From Alphaproteobacteria bacterium (GTDB taxonomy: Bacteria > Pseudomonadota > Alphaproteobacteria > UBA2966 > CAIVPW01), in the NCBI GenBank assembly GCA_947481575.1, contig CANKGV010000021.1, positions 1 to 42,078 of the forward strand: a stretch of 42,078 nucleotides of DNA, given 5' to 3'. Each line of letters begins with the position of its first letter. Position 1 is the stretch's first letter. Below the pieces are notes generated by a model. The model had not been told where the DNA came from and searched no databases. It saw nothing but the letters and a program-made list of their open reading frames with translations. A program made the translations under genes and the position numbers. Of the stretch, positions 9,798 through 32,054 are shown piece after piece.

Positions 9798-11147
9798 ATG
9801 GCATCGGCCGCAGAACAACTCGTCGCTAACATCAATCTGGGCGCCTTCGGCAAGGCGACGGAGCTGAAGCAGCGTCTGTGGTTCACCCTGTTGGCGCTGA
9901 TCGTCTATCGGCTCGGCACCTATATCCCGTTGCCCGGGCTCGATCCGAACGCGATCGAGGCGATCTTCCAGCAGAACTCGGGCGGCATTCTTGGCATGTT
10001 CGACATGTTCGCCGGCGGTGCGTTGAGCCGCATGACGATCTTTGCGCTGAACATCATGCCGTACATCTCTGCGTCGATCATTGTTCAGTTGATGACGACC
10101 GTATCGAAGCGCCTCGAAGCCATGAAGAAAGAGGGCGAGGCCGGCCGCAAGAAGATGAACCAGTACACGCGCTACGGCACCGTCGTCCTGGCCGTGTTGC
10201 AGGCCTACGGCATTGCAGTCGGCCTGGAGAACACCCAGGCGGGTGTGGGCGCTAGCGCGGTGCTCGAACCTGGCTGGTACTTCCGCTTTACGACGGTCAT
10301 CACGCTCACCGGCGGCACCATCTTCTTGATGTGGCTGGGCGAGCAGATCACCGCCCGCGGCGTAGGCAACGGAATTTCGCTGATCATTCTGTCGGGCATC
10401 GTCGCGCGCCTGCCCGCGGCAATCGCCGCAACTCTCGATCTTGGTCGTACCGGCGCATTGTCGGTCGCGTTCATCTTGGCCTTGCTGGTTGCCGGCGTGG
10501 CGGTCATCACGTTCATTGTGTTTATGGAGCGCGCCCAGCGCCGGATCATCGTTCAGTATCCGAAGCGCCAAATGGGCAGCCGCATGTTCGGCGGGGAGGC
10601 GTCGCACCTTCCGCTTAAGCTCAACACCTCGGGCGTAATTCCGCCGATCTTCGCGTCGTCGCTCCTGCTCCTGCCGATCACCGTTGCGAATTTCAGCGCC
10701 GGCGCAGGGACCACGGGCTGGCTTTCCAACATTACGGCGATGCTTGGCCGTGGCCAACCGCTGTACCTGTTGCTGTACGGCGGCCTCATTGTGTTCTTCG
10801 CGTACTTCTATACGGCCGTGGTGTTCAACCCGGTCGATACGGCCGACAACCTCAAGAAGTACGGCGGCTTCATCCCCGGAATTCGGCCGGGGAAGAACAC
10901 GTCCGATTACCTCGATACCGTGCTTACCCGTTTGACGACCCTTGGCGCGCTCTACCTTGTCGCTGTGTGTCTGTTGCCTGAGATTCTCGTGTCCCGGTTT
11001 TCCGTGCCGTTCTATTTCGGCGGTACGTCGCTGCTAATCGTGGTTACGGTGACCATGGATACGGTCGCGCAGATCCAGTCGCATTTGTTGGCACACCAGT
11101 ACGAGGGCCTGATTCGCAAGTCGAAGCTGCGCGGGCGTGGCCGGTGA
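9798..11147 (+). CDS. secY: Protein translocase subunit SecY
   Basis: SecY (449 aa) is the channel subunit of the Sec translocon in the inner membrane and works with SecE, SecG and SecA. Ten membrane spans are expected. Clear signatures are LGTYIPLPGLDP in TM1, FDMFAGGALSRMTIFALNIMPYISASIIVQL around the plug and TM2, GNGISLIILSGI, and the cytoplasmic loop AQRRIIVQYPKR used by SecA and ribosomes. GGGAG lies upstream of the ATG. The stop overlaps the adk start (GTGA). The order rplO-secY-adk is standard. Confidence 0.98.
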   Translation: MASAAEQLVANINLGAFGKATELKQRLWFTLLALIVYRLGTYIPLPGLDPNAIEAIFQQNSGGILGMFDMFAGGALSRMTIFALNIMPYISASIIVQLMTTVSKRLEAMKKEGEAGRKKMNQYTRYGTVVLAVLQAYGIAVGLENTQAGVGASAVLEPGWYFRFTTVITLTGGTIFLMWLGEQITARGVGNGISLIILSGIVARLPAAIAATLDLGRTGALSVAFILALLVAGVAVITFIVFMERAQRRIIVQYPKRQMGSRMFGGEASHLPLKLNTSGVIPPIFASSLLLLPITVANFSAGAGTTGWLSNITAMLGRGQPLYLLLYGGLIVFFAYFYTAVVFNPVDTADNLKKYGGFIPGIRPGKNTSDYLDTVLTRLTTLGALYLVAVCLLPEILVSRFSVPFYFGGTSLLIVVTVTMDTVAQIQSHLLAHQYEGLIRKSKLRGRGR

Positions 11148-12819: not shown

Positions 12820-13839
12820 GTGATCATCCAGCGCAATTGGAAAGAACTCATCAAACCGGGCAAGCTCCAAGTTGAGCCGGGCCATGACCCCTCGCGACTG
12901 GCCACTGTGGTGGCAGAGCCGCTGGAGCGCGGTTTCGGTCTGACGCTGGGCAACGCGCTGCGACGCGTTCTGTTGTCGTCGCTCCAGGGCGCGGCGGTGA
13001 CGGCAATCCAGATCGAGGGCGTGCTACACGAGTTCTCGACGGTTCCCGGCGTTCGGGAAGATGTCACCGACATCGTACTCAACGTGAAGCAGCTCGCGGT
13101 GCGGATGCACGGGGATGGCCCGAAGCGCATGACGCTGACGGCCACGGGGCCGGGCGAAGTGACAGCGGGCAAGATCGAGACCGGCCACGACATCGAGATC
13201 ATGAACCCCGATACGGTGATCTGCACCCTCGATGAGGGAGCGCGCCTTTCGATGGAACTGATGGTTGGGTCGGGCAACGGCTATGTGCCTGCCGCGGCCA
13301 ATCGTGAAGAGGACAAGCCGATCGGACTGATCCCGGTCGACTCGGTGTACAGCCCGGTTCGCAAGGTCGCGTACAAGGTTGAGAACACCCGCGCCGGCCA
13401 GTACCTCGACTACGACAAGCTCACGATGGATGTCGAAACCAACGGCACCGTTACGCCCGAGGACGCGGTGGCGTTTGCCGCCCGCATTCTGCAGGACCAG
13501 CTCCAGTTGTTCATCAACTTCGAAGAGCCGGTCCAGGAGACGAAGCACGAAGCCCGTCCGGAACCCGAGTTCAACCGCAACTTGCTGCGCAAGGTCGATG
13601 AGCTCGAATTGTCGGTCCGGTCGGCCAACTGCCTGAAGAACGACAACATCGTCTACATCGGCGACCTCATTCAGAAGACTGAAGCCGAGATGCTCCGCAC
13701 CCCGAACTTCGGCCGTAAGTCTTTGAATGAAATCAAGGAAGTATTGGCCCAGTTGGGTCTGCACCTTGGTATGGAAGTGCCGAATTGGCCCCCCGAGAAC
13801 ATCGAGGACATGGCCAAGAAGCTCGAAGACCAGTATTAA
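12820..13839 (+). CDS. rpoA: DNA-directed RNA polymerase subunit alpha
   Basis: The alpha subunit (339 aa) dimerises to nucleate RNA polymerase and contacts UP elements and activators. The N-terminal domain shows [42 protein letters not shown] flexible linker near residues 235-250 leads to the C-terminal domain with [22 protein letters not shown] and [17 protein letters not shown], which includes the DNA-contacting helix region. The start is GTG at 12820 with GAGGT about 9 nt upstream. The 101-bp gap before it holds the UUCG hairpin. Confidence 0.98.
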
Positions 13840-18536: not shown

Positions 18537-18550
18537 GCCCCGAATGGGGC
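18537..18550 (+). promoter_or_regulatory. Small hairpin in the lipB-fliN divergent region
   Basis: GCCCC-GAAT-GGGGC is a perfect 5-bp stem located 23 nt before the chosen fliN start. The alternative fliN ATG (18544) lies in its loop. Its role is unknown. The divergent region (18479-18573) must hold promoters for both genes, but I see no convincing -35/-10 pair or sigma54 site. Confidence 0.3.
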
Positions 18551-18573
18551 TTGGCGATGCGCCGGAGAACATC

Positions 18574-18987
18574 ATGGCTGACGACACACCTGCAAGCCCA
18601 TCCGACACCACCACCGCGCCCGACGACGCCGCGGCCCTGCCTCCGGGACTGGATACGGATCTGGGAACGCCGATGGACATGATGGGCGACCAGGTCCCAC
18701 CCCCCATGCCCACCGCACGGCCGGCCAAGTCGCGCCGCAACCGTACGGCAGCCCCGGCGTTTAACGAGGTTTCCGTTGAGCTTTCCGTGGTTCTTGGGCG
18801 GGCCAGCATGCCGATCCACCAACTCCTGAAGATGGGCCGCGGCGCCGTGATTGAGCTTGGCGCCCATGTCGACGACGACGCCTTGATCTATGCCAACAAT
18901 CGCCTGATTGCCCGCGGTCAGGTGGTCGTTGTGGGCGAGAACATTGCGGTTTCCATCACCGAAACGGTGCCGATTACCGAGACGTAG
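18574..18987 (+). CDS. fliN: Flagellar motor switch protein FliN
   Basis: FliN (137 aa) forms, with FliM and FliG, the C-ring that switches flagellar rotation and docks export cargo. The last 75 residues are a SpoA/FliN domain: SVELSVVLGRASMPIHQLLKMGRGAVIELGAHVDDDALIYANNRLIARGQVVVVGENIAVSITE. The first 60 residues are disordered, rich in Asp, Pro and Ala. The ATG at 18574 has GGAGA 5-6 nt upstream and is preferred to an ATG at 18544. No other flagellar genes lie nearby, and the gene has its own terminator. Confidence 0.92.
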   Translation: MADDTPASPSDTTTAPDDAAALPPGLDTDLGTPMDMMGDQVPPPMPTARPAKSRRNRTAAPAFNEVSVELSVVLGRASMPIHQLLKMGRGAVIELGAHVDDDALIYANNRLIARGQVVVVGENIAVSITETVPITET

Positions 18988-20602: not shown

Positions 20603-21364
20603 TTAGAACCGGTGCCCGGTGGTGATGCCGGCGAAGTACAGGGTGTTGCGCGTGAGGGGGTTCTTGCTGGCGGGCCCGAGCAGGCGCCCGACCTGCCCGT
20701 CGAAGCCCAGGTAGGTCCCACCGCCCAGTTCGCGCACCACGGCCATGTACGTGATCACATTCGTGATGCCGGCACCGGCGTCGAGGTAATACGCCTCGTT
20801 GTACTTGGATCCGTCGTACTCGACGCGTCCGCCAAAGAACAAGTTTGCATTGGCCGCGATTGGGCCACCGATCGTAGCCCCTAGTGTCGCGCGTACGGCC
20901 TTTGGGCCGGATGTGACCCGCTGGCGAATATCGCTGTCAAACCGCCACGGGCCGCTGAAGTGAACGAAGAATAGCCCCGCCTCGTAGCCGCTCTTGATGT
21001 CGCCAGTGCCGGCCAGGGATGCGTCGAGGCTTTCCTTGCGGCCTGCGTCGTAGGTGATGCGAGGCCCGAACAGGGTGTCGCTGGTGTGTACCCAGTTGAT
21101 GCCGACGCCGCGCACCGTGCTGATGAACACTCGGCCGCGCCATTCCGTGTCGATAACCGGGAGCACGAACCCGGTCGCGCTACGCGCGCCGCGGTATTTT
21201 GGCGCCGAGCCGTAGCCGAGTCCGAGGTTCACTTTCCAGTTGCCGGGAGTCTGATCCCGTACGGCTAACGGCGCTTGCAGCCAAGTCTCGTAGTCCGCTG
21301 CCTGAACGGCGGGTACGTACCAAGCGGCGGCAGCAGCGATCAGGAGCAAACAAATGCGGCGCAT
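20603..21364 (-). CDS. MipA/OmpV-like outer-membrane protein
   Basis: This is a 253-residue secreted protein. A signal peptide is clear (MRRICLLLIAAAAAWYVPAVQA, cleavage near residue 22). The mature part begins with WKVNLGLGYGSAPKYRGARS, the MipA/OmpV opening, and contains alternating beta-strand patterns and short turns. It ends in phenylalanine (GITTGHRF), as outer-membrane barrels do. Homologues act as MltA-interacting scaffold or outer-membrane proteins; the ligand here is unknown. It starts 6 bp after the flavoprotein gene on the same strand and is probably co-transcribed with it. Confidence 0.85.
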   Translation of the reverse strand: MRRICLLLIAAAAAWYVPAVQAADYETWLQAPLAVRDQTPGNWKVNLGLGYGSAPKYRGARSATGFVLPVIDTEWRGRVFISTVRGVGINWVHTSDTLFGPRITYDAGRKESLDASLAGTGDIKSGYEAGLFFVHFSGPWRFDSDIRQRVTSGPKAVRATLGATIGGPIAANANLFFGGRVEYDGSKYNEAYYLDAGAGITNVITYMAVVRELGGGTYLGFDGQVGRLLGPASKNPLTRNTLYFAGITTGHRF

Positions 21365-21370
21365 CCGACC

Positions 21371-22474
21371 CTACTTTGCGAGTACGAGAACCTCACCGGC
21401 TAATGCCAGTGCGGAGGTGAGGCCCGGCGAGTCGATCCCGAACAGGTTCACTAGGCCACGGATGCCGTGCTTGGCGTAGTCCTGAATGACGAAATCAGCT
21501 TGCGGCGCGCCCGGTCCCTGCAAGCTGGGACGGATTCCAGCGTATCCCGGTTGCAGGGCCCCGTCTTCTAAATCGGGGTAATAGCGCCGGACCGCCGTCT
21601 GAAATACCGCGACCTTATCGGGCCGCACGGTGTACTCGGCATCCTGAACCCATTCCTGGTCAGGGCCAAATCGGCCGCGCCCCTGGATGTCCATTGTGTA
21701 GTGGATGCCGAGCCCGGCCGCGTCGGGAACGGGATAGATCAGCCGGCTGAACGGGGCTTTTCCGGCGAAGGTGAAGTATGACCCCTTGCTCAAGTACCGC
21801 TTCGGAATCAGTGCCTCTTGCATGCGGGAGACTCGAGAGGCTACCGATTGCGCGTTCAGCCCCGCCGCATTGATTAGGAAGCGTGACTTGAACCGCGTCA
21901 CGTCGGTGCCGACGCCGGCCTCAATGTCGAACCCGGAGGCCGCGTGGGCCAAGCGGAACGGGGTCCGCATCACAAACGTGGCGCCCGCCGCCTCAGCGTC
22001 GGCCTGCAAGGTACGCATCAGCGCTTGGGTATCAACGATTCCCGTTACCTGGACGTGCAGGGCGGCGACGCACCGCAAGGCCGGCTCCATACGGACCGCC
22101 TCAGGGCCCGAGAGGAATTGCACCGTGCCGACGCCGTTAGCCACCGCCCGGGCGTGCAGGTCGTGCAAGACCGGCACCTCGGCCTCGGTGGTAGCAACGA
22201 TGAGCTTGCCGGTCACCTTGTGCGGGATGTTGCGCTCAGCACAGTACACGTAGAGGAGGCGCCGGCCGCGCACGCACTGGATCGCCTTGGCGCTGTTCTT
22301 CGCGTAGTACAGGCCGGCGTGGACAACTTCGCTGTTACGCGAACTGATGCCGGTGCCGACGGCACTGTCGGCCTCCAGAACCAATACCTCACGCTTGGCG
22401 CTGGCGAGAGCGCGGGCAATGGCAAGCCCAACCACGCCCGCACCGACAACCACACACTCAACTTGCTGAACCAT
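21371..22474 (-). CDS. FAD-dependent oxidoreductase, L-2-hydroxyglutarate oxidase/dehydrogenase-like
   Basis: The protein (367 aa) belongs to the DAO flavoprotein fold. The N-terminal Rossmann motif VVVGAGVVGLAIARALA binds FAD, with the acidic strand end VLVLEAD at about residues 30-36. TGISSRNSEVVHAGLYY is typical of the L-2-hydroxyglutarate oxidase (LhgO/L2HGDH) group. Close paralogues oxidise other 2-hydroxyacids or amino acids, so the substrate is not certain. AGGAG lies 4-5 nt before the ATG. It is the first gene of a two-gene unit with the MipA-like gene. Confidence 0.85.
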   Translation of the reverse strand: MVQQVECVVVGAGVVGLAIARALASAKREVLVLEADSAVGTGISSRNSEVVHAGLYYAKNSAKAIQCVRGRRLLYVYCAERNIPHKVTGKLIVATTEAEVPVLHDLHARAVANGVGTVQFLSGPEAVRMEPALRCVAALHVQVTGIVDTQALMRTLQADAEAAGATFVMRTPFRLAHAASGFDIEAGVGTDVTRFKSRFLINAAGLNAQSVASRVSRMQEALIPKRYLSKGSYFTFAGKAPFSRLIYPVPDAAGLGIHYTMDIQGRGRFGPDQEWVQDAEYTVRPDKVAVFQTAVRRYYPDLEDGALQPGYAGIRPSLQGPGAPQADFVIQDYAKHGIRGLVNLFGIDSPGLTSALALAGEVLVLAK

Positions 22475-22620: not shown

Positions 22621-23340
22621 ATGGTCGTGGGAAGGGACAAGACGCCTGTCGGGCGCGCGTCGGGCGAGATTGGCCGCTCGCCGGTAGAGGCTTTCCTGCA
22701 AAAGCTTTCAGTTGCGCCTGTTCCCGCACACTTGGGGCGGGGGCGACTATTGTTTGCACTCGACGCTACGGCGAGCCGCGAGGCGACCTGGGACCAGGCG
22801 TGCCACGTCCAGGCCGAGATGTTTAGCGCGGCCGCCGAGGTTGGCGGGCTGGAGATTCAACTGGCGTACTACCGCGGATACCTCGACTTTCGCGCGACGC
22901 CGTGGCTCGGCGATGCCGCCGCCCTAGTGCGCGAAATGACCGTCGTGGATTGTCAGGCAGGGCACACCCAGATTGCTCGCGTGCTGGACCATGCGCTGGC
23001 GGAATCGCGCAAAGGCCGGGTCAGTGCCGTGGTGTTTGTCGGCGACTGCGTCGAGGAAGACGTTGCCGAGCTATGCCGCAAGGCGGGCGAACTGGGGGTG
23101 CGCGGTACCCGTGTGTTCATGTTCCAAGAGGGTGATGACCCTGCAGCACAGGTTGCCTTCCAGCAGATCGCGACGCTCAGCGGCGGGGCGTGGTGCCGAT
23201 TCGACCTGGGCAGCGCCGGTCAGCTACGCGACCTGCTTAAGGCGGTCGCCGTGTACGCGGCAGGCGGTAAGAAGGCACTGCTGGCCCATAGCGACAAAGT
23301 CCGGGGCGATGTACTGCACATCACCCGCCAGCTTGGCTAG
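22621..23340 (+). CDS. VWA-like domain protein of unknown function
   Basis: The protein (239 aa) resembles a von Willebrand A domain. RLLFALDATASREATWDQACHVQAEMF gives a hydrophobic strand ending in DATAS, a variant of the metal-binding DxSxS motif with Thr in place of the first Ser. VSAVVFVGDCVEEDVAEL and RGTRVFMFQEGDD are the later strands. No signal peptide or membrane span is seen, so it is probably cytoplasmic. A GGGGAGGGG tract lies about 8 nt before the ATG at 22621; longer openings to 22516 lack support. The next gene, 9 bp on, is a membrane J-protein. Function is unknown. Confidence 0.75.
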   Translation: MVVGRDKTPVGRASGEIGRSPVEAFLQKLSVAPVPAHLGRGRLLFALDATASREATWDQACHVQAEMFSAAAEVGGLEIQLAYYRGYLDFRATPWLGDAAALVREMTVVDCQAGHTQIARVLDHALAESRKGRVSAVVFVGDCVEEDVAELCRKAGELGVRGTRVFMFQEGDDPAAQVAFQQIATLSGGAWCRFDLGSAGQLRDLLKAVAVYAAGGKKALLAHSDKVRGDVLHITRQLG

Positions 23341-23349
23341 CGCTGCGCC

Positions 23350-24042
23350 ATGACTTGGCTTCTGCTTGGCGTCTTGGTCTTGGCGGTGCTGGTCCTGGCC
23401 CGCAATTGGCTGGCTGCGGTCAACCCGGTGTCCGCCGCTCGCGCCCTGCGGTGGACGGGCGTCGCGGCGCTGGTCGCCGTTGCTGCGTATCTTGCGGCGA
23501 CCGGCCGGATTGCTCTCGATGCGCCCATGCTGCTGTTTCTGGTGCCCCAAGTGCGCCGGTGGCTTTCCGCGCAGACCCAGCGGGTCGCCGGATCGAGTGC
23601 GCCGCCGCCGGGGGGTACGTCTGACGTTCGCACCGCAACACTTCACATGACGTTGGACCATGGATCGGGCGTCGTGACTGGGCGCGTTGTGGCCGGAAGG
23701 TTCGCCGGGCGGACCCTCAGCGACCTCGATGTCCCTCAAGTGCTGGACCTGCTGACCGAGTGCCGTGGCACCGATGAGGAGTCGGTCCCGCTGGTGGAAG
23801 CATATCTGGACCGGATCAATCCGGAGTGGCGTGACGAGGCCCGCACCTCCGCGAAACCCTCGGCCGACGGGCCGATGACCAGGGAGGAGGCGTATCAAAT
23901 CCTGGAACTGAATGCCGGCGCCTCAGCCGACGACGTCCGGGCAGCCCACCATCGCCTCATGAAGAAGCTCCACCCGGACCAGGGCGGGTCGACCTATTTG
24001 GCCAGCAAGGTCAACCAGGCGAAGGACCTACTCCTCGGGTAG
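23350..24042 (+). CDS. Membrane-anchored J-domain protein resembling mitochondrial Pam18/Tim14
   Basis: The protein (230 aa) has two N-terminal hydrophobic segments (about residues 2-18 and 35-65), a middle region of about 90 residues (TLHMTLDHGSGVVTGRV onward) and a C-terminal J-domain. The J-domain is the short Pam18 kind: MTREEAYQILELNAGASADDV then HHRLMKKLHPDQGGSTYLA and KVNQAKDLLLG, with the HPD triad that stimulates Hsp70 ATPase. It presumably recruits DnaK to the membrane. It is paired with the VWA-like gene. Pam18 similarity is by motif; whether it helps export or protein quality control is unknown. Confidence 0.85.
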   Translation: MTWLLLGVLVLAVLVLARNWLAAVNPVSAARALRWTGVAALVAVAAYLAATGRIALDAPMLLFLVPQVRRWLSAQTQRVAGSSAPPPGGTSDVRTATLHMTLDHGSGVVTGRVVAGRFAGRTLSDLDVPQVLDLLTECRGTDEESVPLVEAYLDRINPEWRDEARTSAKPSADGPMTREEAYQILELNAGASADDVRAAHHRLMKKLHPDQGGSTYLASKVNQAKDLLLG

Positions 24043-24102: not shown

Positions 24103-24987
24103 ATGGCCCACACACAGAAAAAGGTCCGCAAGGCGGTCTTTCCCGTCGGCGGGCTGGGCACGCGATTCCTGCCCGCTACCAAGGCGCAGCCCAAAGAAAT
24201 GCTGCCGGTGGTCGACAAGCCGCTCATTCAGTACGCGGTGGAAGAAGCCCAGGCGGCGGGGATCGAGGAATTCATCTTCGTCACCGGGCGCGGCAAGACC
24301 GCGATCGAAGACCACTTCGACATTTCGTTCGAGCTGAAAGATCAGCTGGCGAGCCGCGGCAAGGATGAAGCCAACGCGGCCATGGAAACGTGGCTTCCCG
24401 GCCCGGGGCAGGTATCGTTTACACGCCAGCAGAGGCCCCTGGGTCTCGGACACGCGGTTTGGTGCGCGCGGGCGCTGGTGGGTAACGAGCCGTTCGCGGT
24501 CGTCCTGGCGGACGATTTGATGCTTTCCGACGTAGCTCCATTGAAGCAAATGGTCGAGGCATACGAGCATACTGGCGGCAACCTATTGGCCGTCGAACGG
24601 GTTCCGCGTGCCCTTTCGTCCCGATACGGCATCCTGGACGTGGCCGAGCAGCACGGAAACTTGGTCCGTGCGCGAGGCATTGTTGAGAAGCCGAAGCCGG
24701 AAGCAGCGCCCTCGGACCTTGCCGTGATCGGTCGCTATATTCTGGTTCCCGAGGTGTTTGACGTACTCTCTCACCAAGGCCAGGGCGCTGGCGGGGAGAT
24801 CCAACTTACCGATGCCCTGCAGGCGATGATGAGGAACCATCCGCTGCACGGGATTCTGTGCGATGGAACCCGGTACGATTGCGGCGACAAAGCGGGGTTT
24901 GTCCTCGCCAACGTCGCGTTTGCTCTGCGGCGGAACGACATCCATGACGATCTCAGGGCGCGGTTGCGCCACATCGTCGACAACTAA
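24103..24987 (+). CDS. galU: UTP-glucose-1-phosphate uridylyltransferase
   Basis: GalU (294 aa) makes UDP-glucose from UTP and glucose-1-phosphate. The nucleotide-binding motif VFPVGGLGTRFLPATKAQPKEMLPVVDKPLIQY starts at residue 13; later blocks are GLGHAVWCARALVG, VVLADDLML and RYILVPEVFDVL followed by GAGGEIQLTDAL. The start ATG has no clear ribosome site. It is followed by ugd after 11 bp and pgm after that, so the three form one operon for UDP-sugar supply. Confidence 0.97.
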   Translation: MAHTQKKVRKAVFPVGGLGTRFLPATKAQPKEMLPVVDKPLIQYAVEEAQAAGIEEFIFVTGRGKTAIEDHFDISFELKDQLASRGKDEANAAMETWLPGPGQVSFTRQQRPLGLGHAVWCARALVGNEPFAVVLADDLMLSDVAPLKQMVEAYEHTGGNLLAVERVPRALSSRYGILDVAEQHGNLVRARGIVEKPKPEAAPSDLAVIGRYILVPEVFDVLSHQGQGAGGEIQLTDALQAMMRNHPLHGILCDGTRYDCGDKAGFVLANVAFALRRNDIHDDLRARLRHIVDN

Positions 24988-29720: not shown

Positions 29721-32054
29721 GTGCCCGGATTTTCCAGTCAGCTCGAACGGAGTCTCCATCGCGCCCTGACGCTCGCTAACGAGCGTCACCACGAGTATGC
29801 GACCTTGGAGCACTTGTTGCTGGCCCTCACCGAGGACTCGGATGCGGTGGCGGTACTCAACGCATGCAACGTGGAACTCGATACCCTGCGAAAGGAACTT
29901 TCCGGCTACCTGGACGACCAACTGCCCAATCTGGTGGTCGATAGCGTTGAAGATGCGCGCCCCACTGCGGGCTTCCAGCGCGTGATTCAGCGCGCCCTGA
30001 TTCACGTGCAGTCGTCCGGGCGCGAGGAAGTCACTGGCGCCAACGTGCTCGTCGCGATGTTCTCGGAACGGGAGTCCCATGCGGTCTATTTCCTGCAACA
30101 GCAGGACATGACCCGCCTGGACGCGGTCAGCTACATCTCCCATGGCATTGCCAAGGCGCCCGGAGCAACGGCCGAGCGGCCGGTGCGCGGTGCGGCCGAA
30201 GAGGACGCGGGCGAAGAGGAGTCGCGCGGCCGGCGCGGCGCCGAAGCCCTTAGCACCTATTGCGTCGACCTCAACCGCAAGGCTGCTGCGGGCAAGATCG
30301 ATCCGTTGATCGGCCGTGAGAACGAGGTGGATCGCACCATCCAGATCCTCTGCCGCCGCCACAAGAACAACCCGTTATTTGTCGGCGATCCGGGCGTTGG
30401 CAAGACCGCCATCGCCGAAGGACTGGCGCTGCGCATCACCAAGGGCGAAGTACCGGAAGTGCTGCGCGATGCCCGCATCTACAGCCTCGACATGGGGTCG
30501 CTCCTTGCCGGTACCCGTTACCGTGGCGATTTCGAGGAACGAGTGAAGGCCGTCCTCACTGAACTGGAGAACGACGAAGACGCGATCCTGTTCATCGACG
30601 AGATCCACACCATCATCGGCGCGGGCGCGACGTCTGGTGGAGCGATGGATGCGTCGAACCTGCTGAAGCCGGCGCTCGCGAACGGCGGGCTGCGGTGCAT
30701 CGGATCGACCACCTATAAGGAATACCGCACGGTGTTCGAGAAGGACCGCGCCCTTGCGCGTCGGTTCCAGAAGATCGACGTTGCGGAGCCGTCCATTGAG
30801 GACGCCATCAAGATTCTCAAAGGCCTGAAGCCGTACTTCGAGGAATACCACCACGTCCGCTACACCGGCGACGCGATCCGCACCGCGGTGGAGCTTTCGG
30901 CGCGCTACATCAACGACCGCAAGCTGCCGGACAAGGCGATCGATGTGATCGACGAAGTCGGCGCAGCGGAGATGCTCAAGCCAGAGAACAAGCGCCGCAA
31001 GACCATCGGTCAGAAGGAAGTGGAGGCGGTCATCGCCAAGATGGCGCGCATTCCGCCGAAATCGGTCAGCCGTGACGATAAGGAAGTGCTGAAGACGCTG
31101 GAGCGCGATCTTAAGGCGGTGGTGTTCGGTCAGGACAAGGCCATCGAGGCGCTGTCGAGTTCTATTAAGCTCGCGCGTGCGGGTCTGCGCGAGCCCGAGA
31201 AGCCGATTGGCTGCTACTTGTTTTCCGGCCCTACGGGCGTTGGCAAGACCGAGGTCGCGCGCCAGTTGGCGAATACGCTCGGAGTCGAGTTGATCCGGTT
31301 CGACATGTCCGAGTACATGGAGCGCCACTCGGTATCGCGCCTGATTGGCGCGCCGCCGGGCTATGTCGGATTCGACCAAGGTGGCCTGATGACCGATCAG
31401 GTGGATCAGCACCCCCATGCCGTATTGCTGCTCGATGAAATCGAGAAGGCCCACCCGGATGTGTTCAACCTGCTCCTGCAGGTCATGGACCATGGCAAGC
31501 TGACCGACAACAACGGCAAGAGCGTCGACTTCCGCAGCATCATTCTGGTGATGACGACCAATGCTGGTGCCAGCGAACTGCACAAGCAGGCAATTGGGTT
31601 CGAGCGAGGCCTAAAGTCCGACGAGGACACCGAGGCGATCAATCGTATGTTCACGCCGGAGTTCCGCAACCGCCTGGACTCGATTATCGGCTTCTCCCAC
31701 TTGCCGATCGAAGTGGTGGCTCGTGTGGTCGAGAAGTTCATTCTTCAACTCGAAGCGCAACTCCACGATCGCAACGTCAGCATCGAGATGTCGGATGCTG
31801 CTCGTGCCTGGATCGCCGAAAAGGGCTTCGACAAGCTATATGGCGCCCGCCCCATGGGCCGGTTCATTCAGGAGCACGTGAAGAAGCCGCTCGCCGAGGA
31901 ACTCCTGTTCGGCAAGCTGGAAAAGGGCGGCCACGTCGTTATCGACCTGAAGGACGGCAAGCTCGACTTCGGCCTCACCGCCGATGGCGCCGCCAAGAAG
32001 CCGGGCGCGGAAGACGAGGCCGATACGGGCAAGGTCCCCGTGTTCGCTGATTAG
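29721..32054 (+). CDS. clpA: ATP-dependent Clp protease ATP-binding subunit ClpA
   Basis: ClpA (777 aa) is the AAA+ unfoldase that feeds proteins to ClpP. The N domain (residues 1-145) carries the ClpS-binding surface. The first AAA+ module has Walker [10 protein letters not shown] at 222-230 and [12 protein letters not shown]; the second has GPTGVGKTE at 503-511 and [16 protein letters not shown]. The IGF tripeptide at 625-627 is the ClpP-docking loop. An acidic linker ([16 protein letters not shown]) separates the N domain from module 1. The GTG start immediately follows the clpS stop, and GGAGAGAG in clpS is the ribosome site. clpP is not in the window. Confidence 0.98.

Follow-up and report, generated by a model that had tools for sequence, protein, structure and literature searches.

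A VWA-like protein gene inherited together with a Pam18/Tim14-type membrane J-protein gene in Alphaproteobacteria: a candidate co-chaperone pair

Mitochondrial Pam18 (Tim14), the J-protein of the protein import motor, has one membrane helix and forms a heterodimer with Pam16. Relatives of Pam18 have previously been recognized in Alphaproteobacteria, and TimA and TimB of Caulobacter are reportedly (Clements et al. 2009) inner-membrane relatives of import-motor parts. According to PMC3174187, an HPDxGGS linker motif in a C-terminal J-domain is a feature of Pam18/Tim14; for Trichomonas Pam18, the paper reports a J-domain swap into yeast Pam18, assayed by complementation of a pam18 deletion. PMC13428257 counts metamonad Pam18 among five ancestral groups of proteins with a specific relationship to Alphaproteobacteria. 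At the level of titles and abstracts, no description of a gene pair for a VWA protein and a J-protein was found in the open-access literature. Next to the known alphaproteobacterial Pam18-like proteins, the VWA-linked long form described here and its partner-linked middle domain are apparently new.

The window, i.e. the whole stretch of 42,078 nucleotides that was analyzed, lies on contig C21, which is part of a 2.45-Mb draft genome; the related genomes of its class and the named relatives of its genes are alphaproteobacterial. The initial annotation had described a VWA-like protein encoded 9 bp ahead of a membrane J-protein, and both reading frames are indeed present on the same strand with a spacing of 9 bases from the VWA gene to the J gene; the VWA fold is borne out by a structural model and by structure matches. 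The features are as follows:

22621..23340, plus strand: VWA-like protein, 239 aa (ATG at 22621, stop at 23338-23340; translation, AlphaFold2 model, orthologs)
22762..22776, plus strand: first MIDAS-like motif D48-A-T-A-S52 (D-x-T-x-S; read from the sequence, invariant in alignments)
22966-22968, plus strand: T116, invariant (alignment)
23044-23046, plus strand: D142, invariant (alignment)
23350..24042, plus strand: membrane J-protein of the Pam18/Tim14 type, long form, 230 aa (ATG at 23350, stop at 24040-24042)
23350..23589, plus strand: N-terminal membrane region, residues 1-80, with predicted helices 2-23, 26-51 and 54-80 (model)
23617..23853, plus strand: middle domain, residues 90-168, about 75 residues, modeled as three strands followed by helices
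23875..24036, plus strand: J-domain, residues 176-229, with modeled helices I-III, the protein ending after helix III
23971-23991, plus strand: HPDQGGS, within the J-domain (sequence)
24103..24987, plus strand: galU, first gene of galU-ugd-pgmG, downstream of the J gene (NCBIfam TIGR01099)
20603-22474, minus strand: genes for an FAD oxidoreductase and for MipA, located upstream of the pair and pointing away from it

The best NCBIfam match of the FAD oxidoreductase is L-2-hydroxyglutarate oxidase, below the cut-off of that family. Further genes in the window are ordinary and encode SecY (9798-11147, ahead of rpoA and about 11 kb from the pair), RpoA (12820-13839), a FliN-like protein (18544-18987) and a ClpA-type AAA+ protein (29721-32054).

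The AlphaFold2 model of the VWA-like protein is confident (pLDDT 88.8, pTM 0.83) and has the VWA alpha/beta fold, as solved VWA structures match it with Z values of up to 18.5 (rmsd 2.5 over 170 residues, VIA-align) and Foldseek returns 199 hits with E values of 0.001 or lower. No Pfam model scores above its cut-off with the window sequence; weak matches among 64 relatives are to VWA_2 (16 relatives) and VWA_CoxE (4 relatives). Because VIA-align ranks a TFIIH subunit first, with Rpn10 and ArnAB close behind (Z 16-18.5, rows within 1 Z being tied), whereas extracellular VWA domains, e.g. those of anthrax toxin receptors, come out on top in Foldseek, the protein was not assigned to a nearest kind of VWA. 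Inspection of the sequence reveals no evident signal or membrane segment, and the protein is taken as probably cytosolic.

A MIDAS metal site consists of a D-x-S-x-S motif plus further T and D residues. In the initial annotation the motif DATAS had been called a variant of this site, which is a fair description as far as the D-x-T-x-S sequence is concerned, a threonine taking the place of the first serine. The other expected residues are invariant, D48, T50, S52, T116 and D142 each being identical in 64/64 and in 23/23 aligned relatives; since the exchange of serine for threonine is conservative, the putative metal site may be intact.

Several other identities were considered for the VWA-like protein. 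An amidohydrolase assignment was dismissed, as it goes back to a single weak Pfam match below the cut-off in one of the 64 relatives. CoxE/MoxR-VWA systems are recognized by a VWA_CoxE profile match plus a neighboring gene for a MoxR AAA+ protein. Membership of the CoxE type was rejected on a profile score of 18 bits against a cut-off of 26.4 (E 0.002) and no MoxR-type neighbor in the window. No PADLOC model matches either protein and no PHROG matches the VWA-like protein, while the J-protein matches five unnamed PHROGs via its J-domain; a defense or phage origin of the pair was rejected on these results.

The model of the J-protein has a pLDDT of 89.7 and a pTM of 0.49, so that the placement of its domains relative to each other is unsure. 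The N-terminal helical anchor proposed in the initial annotation is retained as a prediction, with helices at residues 2-23, 26-51 and 54-80 in the model. In the hydropathy profile of the window protein, helices 1 and 2 are clear and helix 3 is weak, and because of this weakness two membrane crossings are also possible. Over 72 aligned J-proteins, the mean number of lysine and arginine residues is 3.89 in positions 18-36, 0.81 in 52-56 and 4.67 in 69-90, a distribution that, by the positive-inside rule, predicts an N-terminus outside and a cytosolic J-domain. The only Pfam families matched by more than one of the 72 members are DnaJ and Pam16, both matches lying C-terminally in the window protein, and the middle domain bears no Pfam name. 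The Pfam DnaJ profile matches the window protein with 29.7 bits (cut-off 27.8). Within the 72 rows, the HPDxGGS motif is highly conserved (H in 71, P in 68, D in 71, G212 in 66, G213 in 71 and S in 65). The best NCBIfam match is DjlA, with 23 bits far under its cut-off of 162. An identity with Pam16, a degenerate J-domain protein without HPD, was rejected since HPD is present and the Pam16 profile reaches 27.1 bits against a cut-off of 30.3.

The J-domain of the window protein belongs to the Pam18/Tim14 type. Yeast Tim14 is the first match in the PDB both in a single-sequence search (3.5e-8, the next at 0.006) and in a search with the J-protein profile (E 3.5e-17, the next chain at 1.6e-7). 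By structure, Foldseek finds nothing with an E of 0.001 or below for the J-protein model, its alignments covering almost only the J-domain, and places Tim14 (2guz_A) best with an rmsd of 1.3 over 56 columns (E 1.1e-3, the next at 0.044); VIA-align also ranks Tim14 first (Z 10.2, rmsd 3.1 over 65, the next at Z 8.7). Together with the presence of HPDQGGS, these results agree with the Pam18-like character first read from the sequence. In a J-domain tree of 83 rows (80 of them different, G027 being entered twice), computed from 59 columns with one mitochondrial sequence and with a bootstrap that had not settled, Tim14 groups with 75 bacterial Pam18-like rows apart from seven other J-domains on a branch with 98/88 support. 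Of the seven DnaJ-domain matches in the window's genome, it is the J-protein of the pair that groups with Tim14. The pairing of Tim14 with row L029 (97/88) was set aside, because it rests on a long branch. The relevance for the origin of the import motor that the initial annotation had seen in the pair is supported in part only, as the tree does not decide between kinship to the long and to the short form: both are intermixed, so that mitochondrial Pam18 is placed nearer to neither, and it is the short form that is nearer in architecture.

The VWA and J genes are inherited together. In the genome of the window and 40 related genomes, the VWA gene is present in 23 of the 41, and a comparison of positions places the J gene next to it in 23/23; in G002 the J gene is cut by the contig end, and in G005 the VWA gene is split over two contigs. 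The 18 genomes without VWA contain a full-length J-protein in no case, J-domain-only matches in 9 and no match in 9. In a sample of 387 alphaproteobacterial genomes, a VWA was found in 152 and a strong J match (E below 1e-40) in 156, both occurring in 151, VWA alone in 1, strong J alone in 5 and neither in 230, these counts being uncorrected for relatedness. The VWA carriers span 98 of 263 genera. A phylum-wide sample contained VWA in 26/299 genomes, 23 of which belong to the class (the window's own included) and 3 to another group. For both samples, genomes below 90% completeness were excluded and, in many genomes, the best 7 or 9 candidates were scored.

The linkage expected from the initial annotation is likewise conserved. 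Among the matches listed, which comprise 150 VWA rows from 147 of the 152 carrier genomes, the J gene lies directly downstream of VWA on the same strand in 137/150 rows, with a median gap of 31 nt and at most 326 nt between the profile matches; for 4 rows there is no J row among the matches listed. In the remaining 9/150 rows, 8 of them from two genera (g78, g67), the pair is not adjacent and both genes are kept. In three of these (G183, G388, G075) they lie on one contig, 0.7-1.05 Mb apart; in the remaining six the two genes are found on separate contigs, for which a break in the assembly may account, as is likely for G182. A replication with the 19 further VWA-positive genomes that the phylum-wide sample contributed, in which positions were compared by eye, gave a full-length J match on the same strand in 19/19, with 21-152 nt between the matches.

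A third set consisted of 80 named loci, which are the best 80 of at least 528 relatives and hence a biased set, as they were drawn as the best-scoring ones; some of their titles read Gammaproteobacteria or Methyloversatilis. A J-protein was found in 76 of them at E 1e-20, in 75 at a distance of about -4 to 84 nt and in one at 1946 nt. The other four comprise three loci near a contig end (L063, L126, L134) and one with a weaker match (L114), which was included in the analysis of downstream genes. Relatives of the divergent FAD oxidoreductase are encoded in 13 of the 80 loci. Named carriers of the VWA gene include strains of Azospirillum, Sneathiella and Microvirga, and the pair is present on large plasmids of Azospirillum brasilense (NZ_CP032348.1, L174) and Microvirga sp. 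(NZ_CP069359.1, L175), the two genes overlapping by 1 nt in the latter. The products are annotated in these two records just as "VWA domain-containing" and "DnaJ domain-containing" proteins.

The presence of VWA is reflected in the architecture of the J-protein. The 235 VWA-less genomes of the class fall into 172 that lack a J match at 1e-12, 51 in which the best match is limited to roughly the J-domain, and 12 with a match that extends into the middle region. The form of the J-protein was re-searched in 64 genomes, i.e. the 63 VWA-less ones with a J match and G103, a genome with VWA and only a short J-protein, the assembly of which is 10% contaminated. Of the 52 matches confined to the J-domain, 45 fall within open frames of 149-190 aa. 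The short J-proteins that were inspected resemble the long form in the N-terminal membrane region and the J-domain but lack the middle domain.

In the VWA-less long forms the middle domain is mostly decayed. With a profile built from VWA-linked relatives of the window, the middle-domain score averages 1.12 in 10 VWA-less long forms and 1.97 in 20 VWA-positive controls (Mann-Whitney p 1.4e-4), compared with J-domain scores of 2.43 and 2.71 (p 0.03), and the difference between middle and J score also separates the two sets (p 6.5e-4); these p-values are optimistic, because related genomes, among them three each of families f32 and f65, were counted separately. As controls, distant VWA-positive genomes were picked by hand among rows that scored low for J or in additional families. 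Two of the 12 genomes were left unscored, namely G081, with a match to 26-155 only, and G168, where the locus is cut by the contig end and the VWA may be missing from the assembly alone. G239, the genus of which includes VWA carriers, has an intact middle domain without an adjoining VWA, as would be expected after a recent loss. The middle domain and VWA are thus not inseparable, since middle-region sequence is kept in 12 VWA-less genomes.

Some VWA-less loci differ further. In G181 (L164, 1492-2160), the long J-protein is encoded beside a galU-like gene and, contrary to the general pattern, its J-domain is decayed as well, with HPD lost; this is a degenerate J-domain reminiscent of Pam16 in a bacterium. 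In G078 and G177 (family f65; L146, L147), a gene for a protein of 144-145 aa lies directly upstream of the J gene at the place of VWA (L146 1039-1473, L147 952-1383), and these similar proteins are presumably DUF1489-like. The 1.4-Mb genomes G234, G045 and G302 (family f32; L149-L151) encode a long J-protein with a diverged middle domain and the motif HPDKDGN, flanked by genes that by appearance are peptide methionine sulfoxide reductase-like and translation GTPase-like. Outside the class, all three genomes of family f187 (G458, G512, G534) encode a VWA-linked long J-protein and, separately, a short one (frames of 168-181 aa), and this coexistence suggests that the two forms may differ in their job.

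The reading that we prefer, with a probability of about one half, is that the pair forms one membrane co-chaperone module which recruits DnaK, the middle domain working with the VWA-like protein as a client adaptor. The J-domain would be held at the inner membrane, on its cytosolic side, and would stimulate DnaK locally; by established J-protein biochemistry, an intact HPD motif together with the predicted membrane anchor leads us to infer that DnaK is recruited to the membrane. As the middle domain hardly occurs in genomes without VWA and has decayed in most of those that do keep it, the simplest reading is that it acts together with VWA, be it by direct docking or via a shared client. Intracellular VWA proteins are often adaptors, and this habit, combined with a joint action of VWA and the middle domain, is the reason for proposing the VWA-like protein as the specificity subunit at a membrane site of DnaK. 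It would select or present a particular client, probably a protein or complex of the membrane or envelope, the insertion, assembly or remodeling of which would then be driven by DnaK. The J-protein would in this way act like Pam18 by activating Hsp70 at a membrane site, with the VWA-like protein as a bacterial specificity subunit.

The relation could also run the other way, with the VWA-like protein as a dedicated client that the membrane J-protein and DnaK fold, assemble or release, and with the VWA's own task as the output; CoxE-type VWA proteins, for example, serve in the maturation of a membrane enzyme. The gene order from VWA to J and the tight spacing suit a client-chaperone pair, and the weak similarity to VWA_CoxE (E 0.002 and below the cut-off in the window protein, with matches in 4/64 relatives) would fit such a task. 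The presence of VWA is, however, tracked by the middle domain more than by the J-domain, and none of the window genes beside the pair (galU, ugd, pgmG and those for the FAD oxidoreductase and MipA) encodes a MoxR-type AAA+ protein. A client role is unlikely.

It is quite unlikely that the pair belongs to an export or insertion motor, in which the J-protein would be located at SecYEG or YidC, DnaK would be used as mtHsp70 is by Pam18, and the VWA-like protein would dock. The Pam18-type J-domain with its predicted membrane anchor is consistent with a motor, as is the one Tim44-like protein of the genome, but the latter is encoded on a different contig and secY, although in the window, is about 11 kb away. 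In addition, a search of the genome at E 0.001 yielded no separate match to the Pam16 profile, the sole match being the J-protein itself, below the cut-off.

The genes downstream of the pair raise the question of a service to envelope polysaccharides, in which the pair, as part of a galU-ugd-pgmG operon, would support a complex for glycan synthesis or export. In 71 named loci, the J gene is followed by 1000 nt or more of sequence; galU is found downstream in 42 of these (in 40 within 1500 nt), and ugd and pgmG without galU in 3 more; galU also follows the pair in the Azospirillum record, and a galU-like gene, judged by sequence appearance, follows J even without an adjoining VWA in G239, G162 and G181. 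On the other hand, all three genes are missing from the available downstream stretch in 26/71 loci and from the Microvirga copy of the pair, and synteny can persist without functional need. While galU is a frequent, not general, neighbor for which membership in the module is not asserted, its neighborhood may point to a task outside a co-chaperone module; a polysaccharide service as such is improbable. That two unrelated neighbors merely stay together is very improbable, because, although adjacent genes can be co-inherited in kin genomes and the samples are phylogenetically non-independent, separated genes are both retained and VWA occurs in just 1/231 genomes without a strong J match, and a chance neighborhood was rejected on the co-inheritance together with the separated but kept pairs.

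The preferred reading of a DnaK-recruiting module can be extended, tentatively and with more doubt than belief, to a widespread alphaproteobacterial membrane Hsp70 machine in which the middle domain would dock a dedicated VWA specificity subunit and from which mitochondria would have inherited the J lineage but neither VWA nor the middle domain; what the import-motor J-protein did ancestrally might then be readable from the pair. The bacterial role of Pam18-like proteins bears directly on the origin of the mitochondrial import motor, and a conserved partner gene with a partner-linked domain offers a handle on this question. VWA is present in roughly 40% of the alphaproteobacterial genomes in the sample (152/387), 151 of which also have the full-length J-protein. 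If the co-chaperone reading is true, a VWA-dependent co-chaperone would join the known kinds of Hsp70 specialization.

Compared with known systems, the VWA-like protein shares its fold with intracellular VWA proteins such as the TFIIH subunit, Rpn10 and archaeal ArnAB, but at 9-17% identity, and its sequence similarity to CoxE-type VWA proteins is weak and below the family cut-off. To our knowledge, no VWA partner of Caulobacter TimA/TimB has been described. The J-protein resembles mitochondrial Pam18/Tim14 (yeast, PDB 2guz chain A) in its C-terminal J-domain, the HPDxGGS motif and the closely similar segment after it, as well as in the predicted membrane anchor ahead of the J-domain and the end of the protein soon after helix III. 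It differs from Pam18/Tim14 by about three predicted membrane helices, the added middle domain and the VWA partner gene, and its genome contains no separate match to Pam16, the mitochondrial partner. In the short alphaproteobacterial Pam18-like J-proteins that were inspected, the membrane region and the J-domain are similar while the middle domain is lacking; in the sample, all short forms but that of G103 occur without VWA, and in architecture this short form is nearer to Pam18 than the VWA-linked long form.
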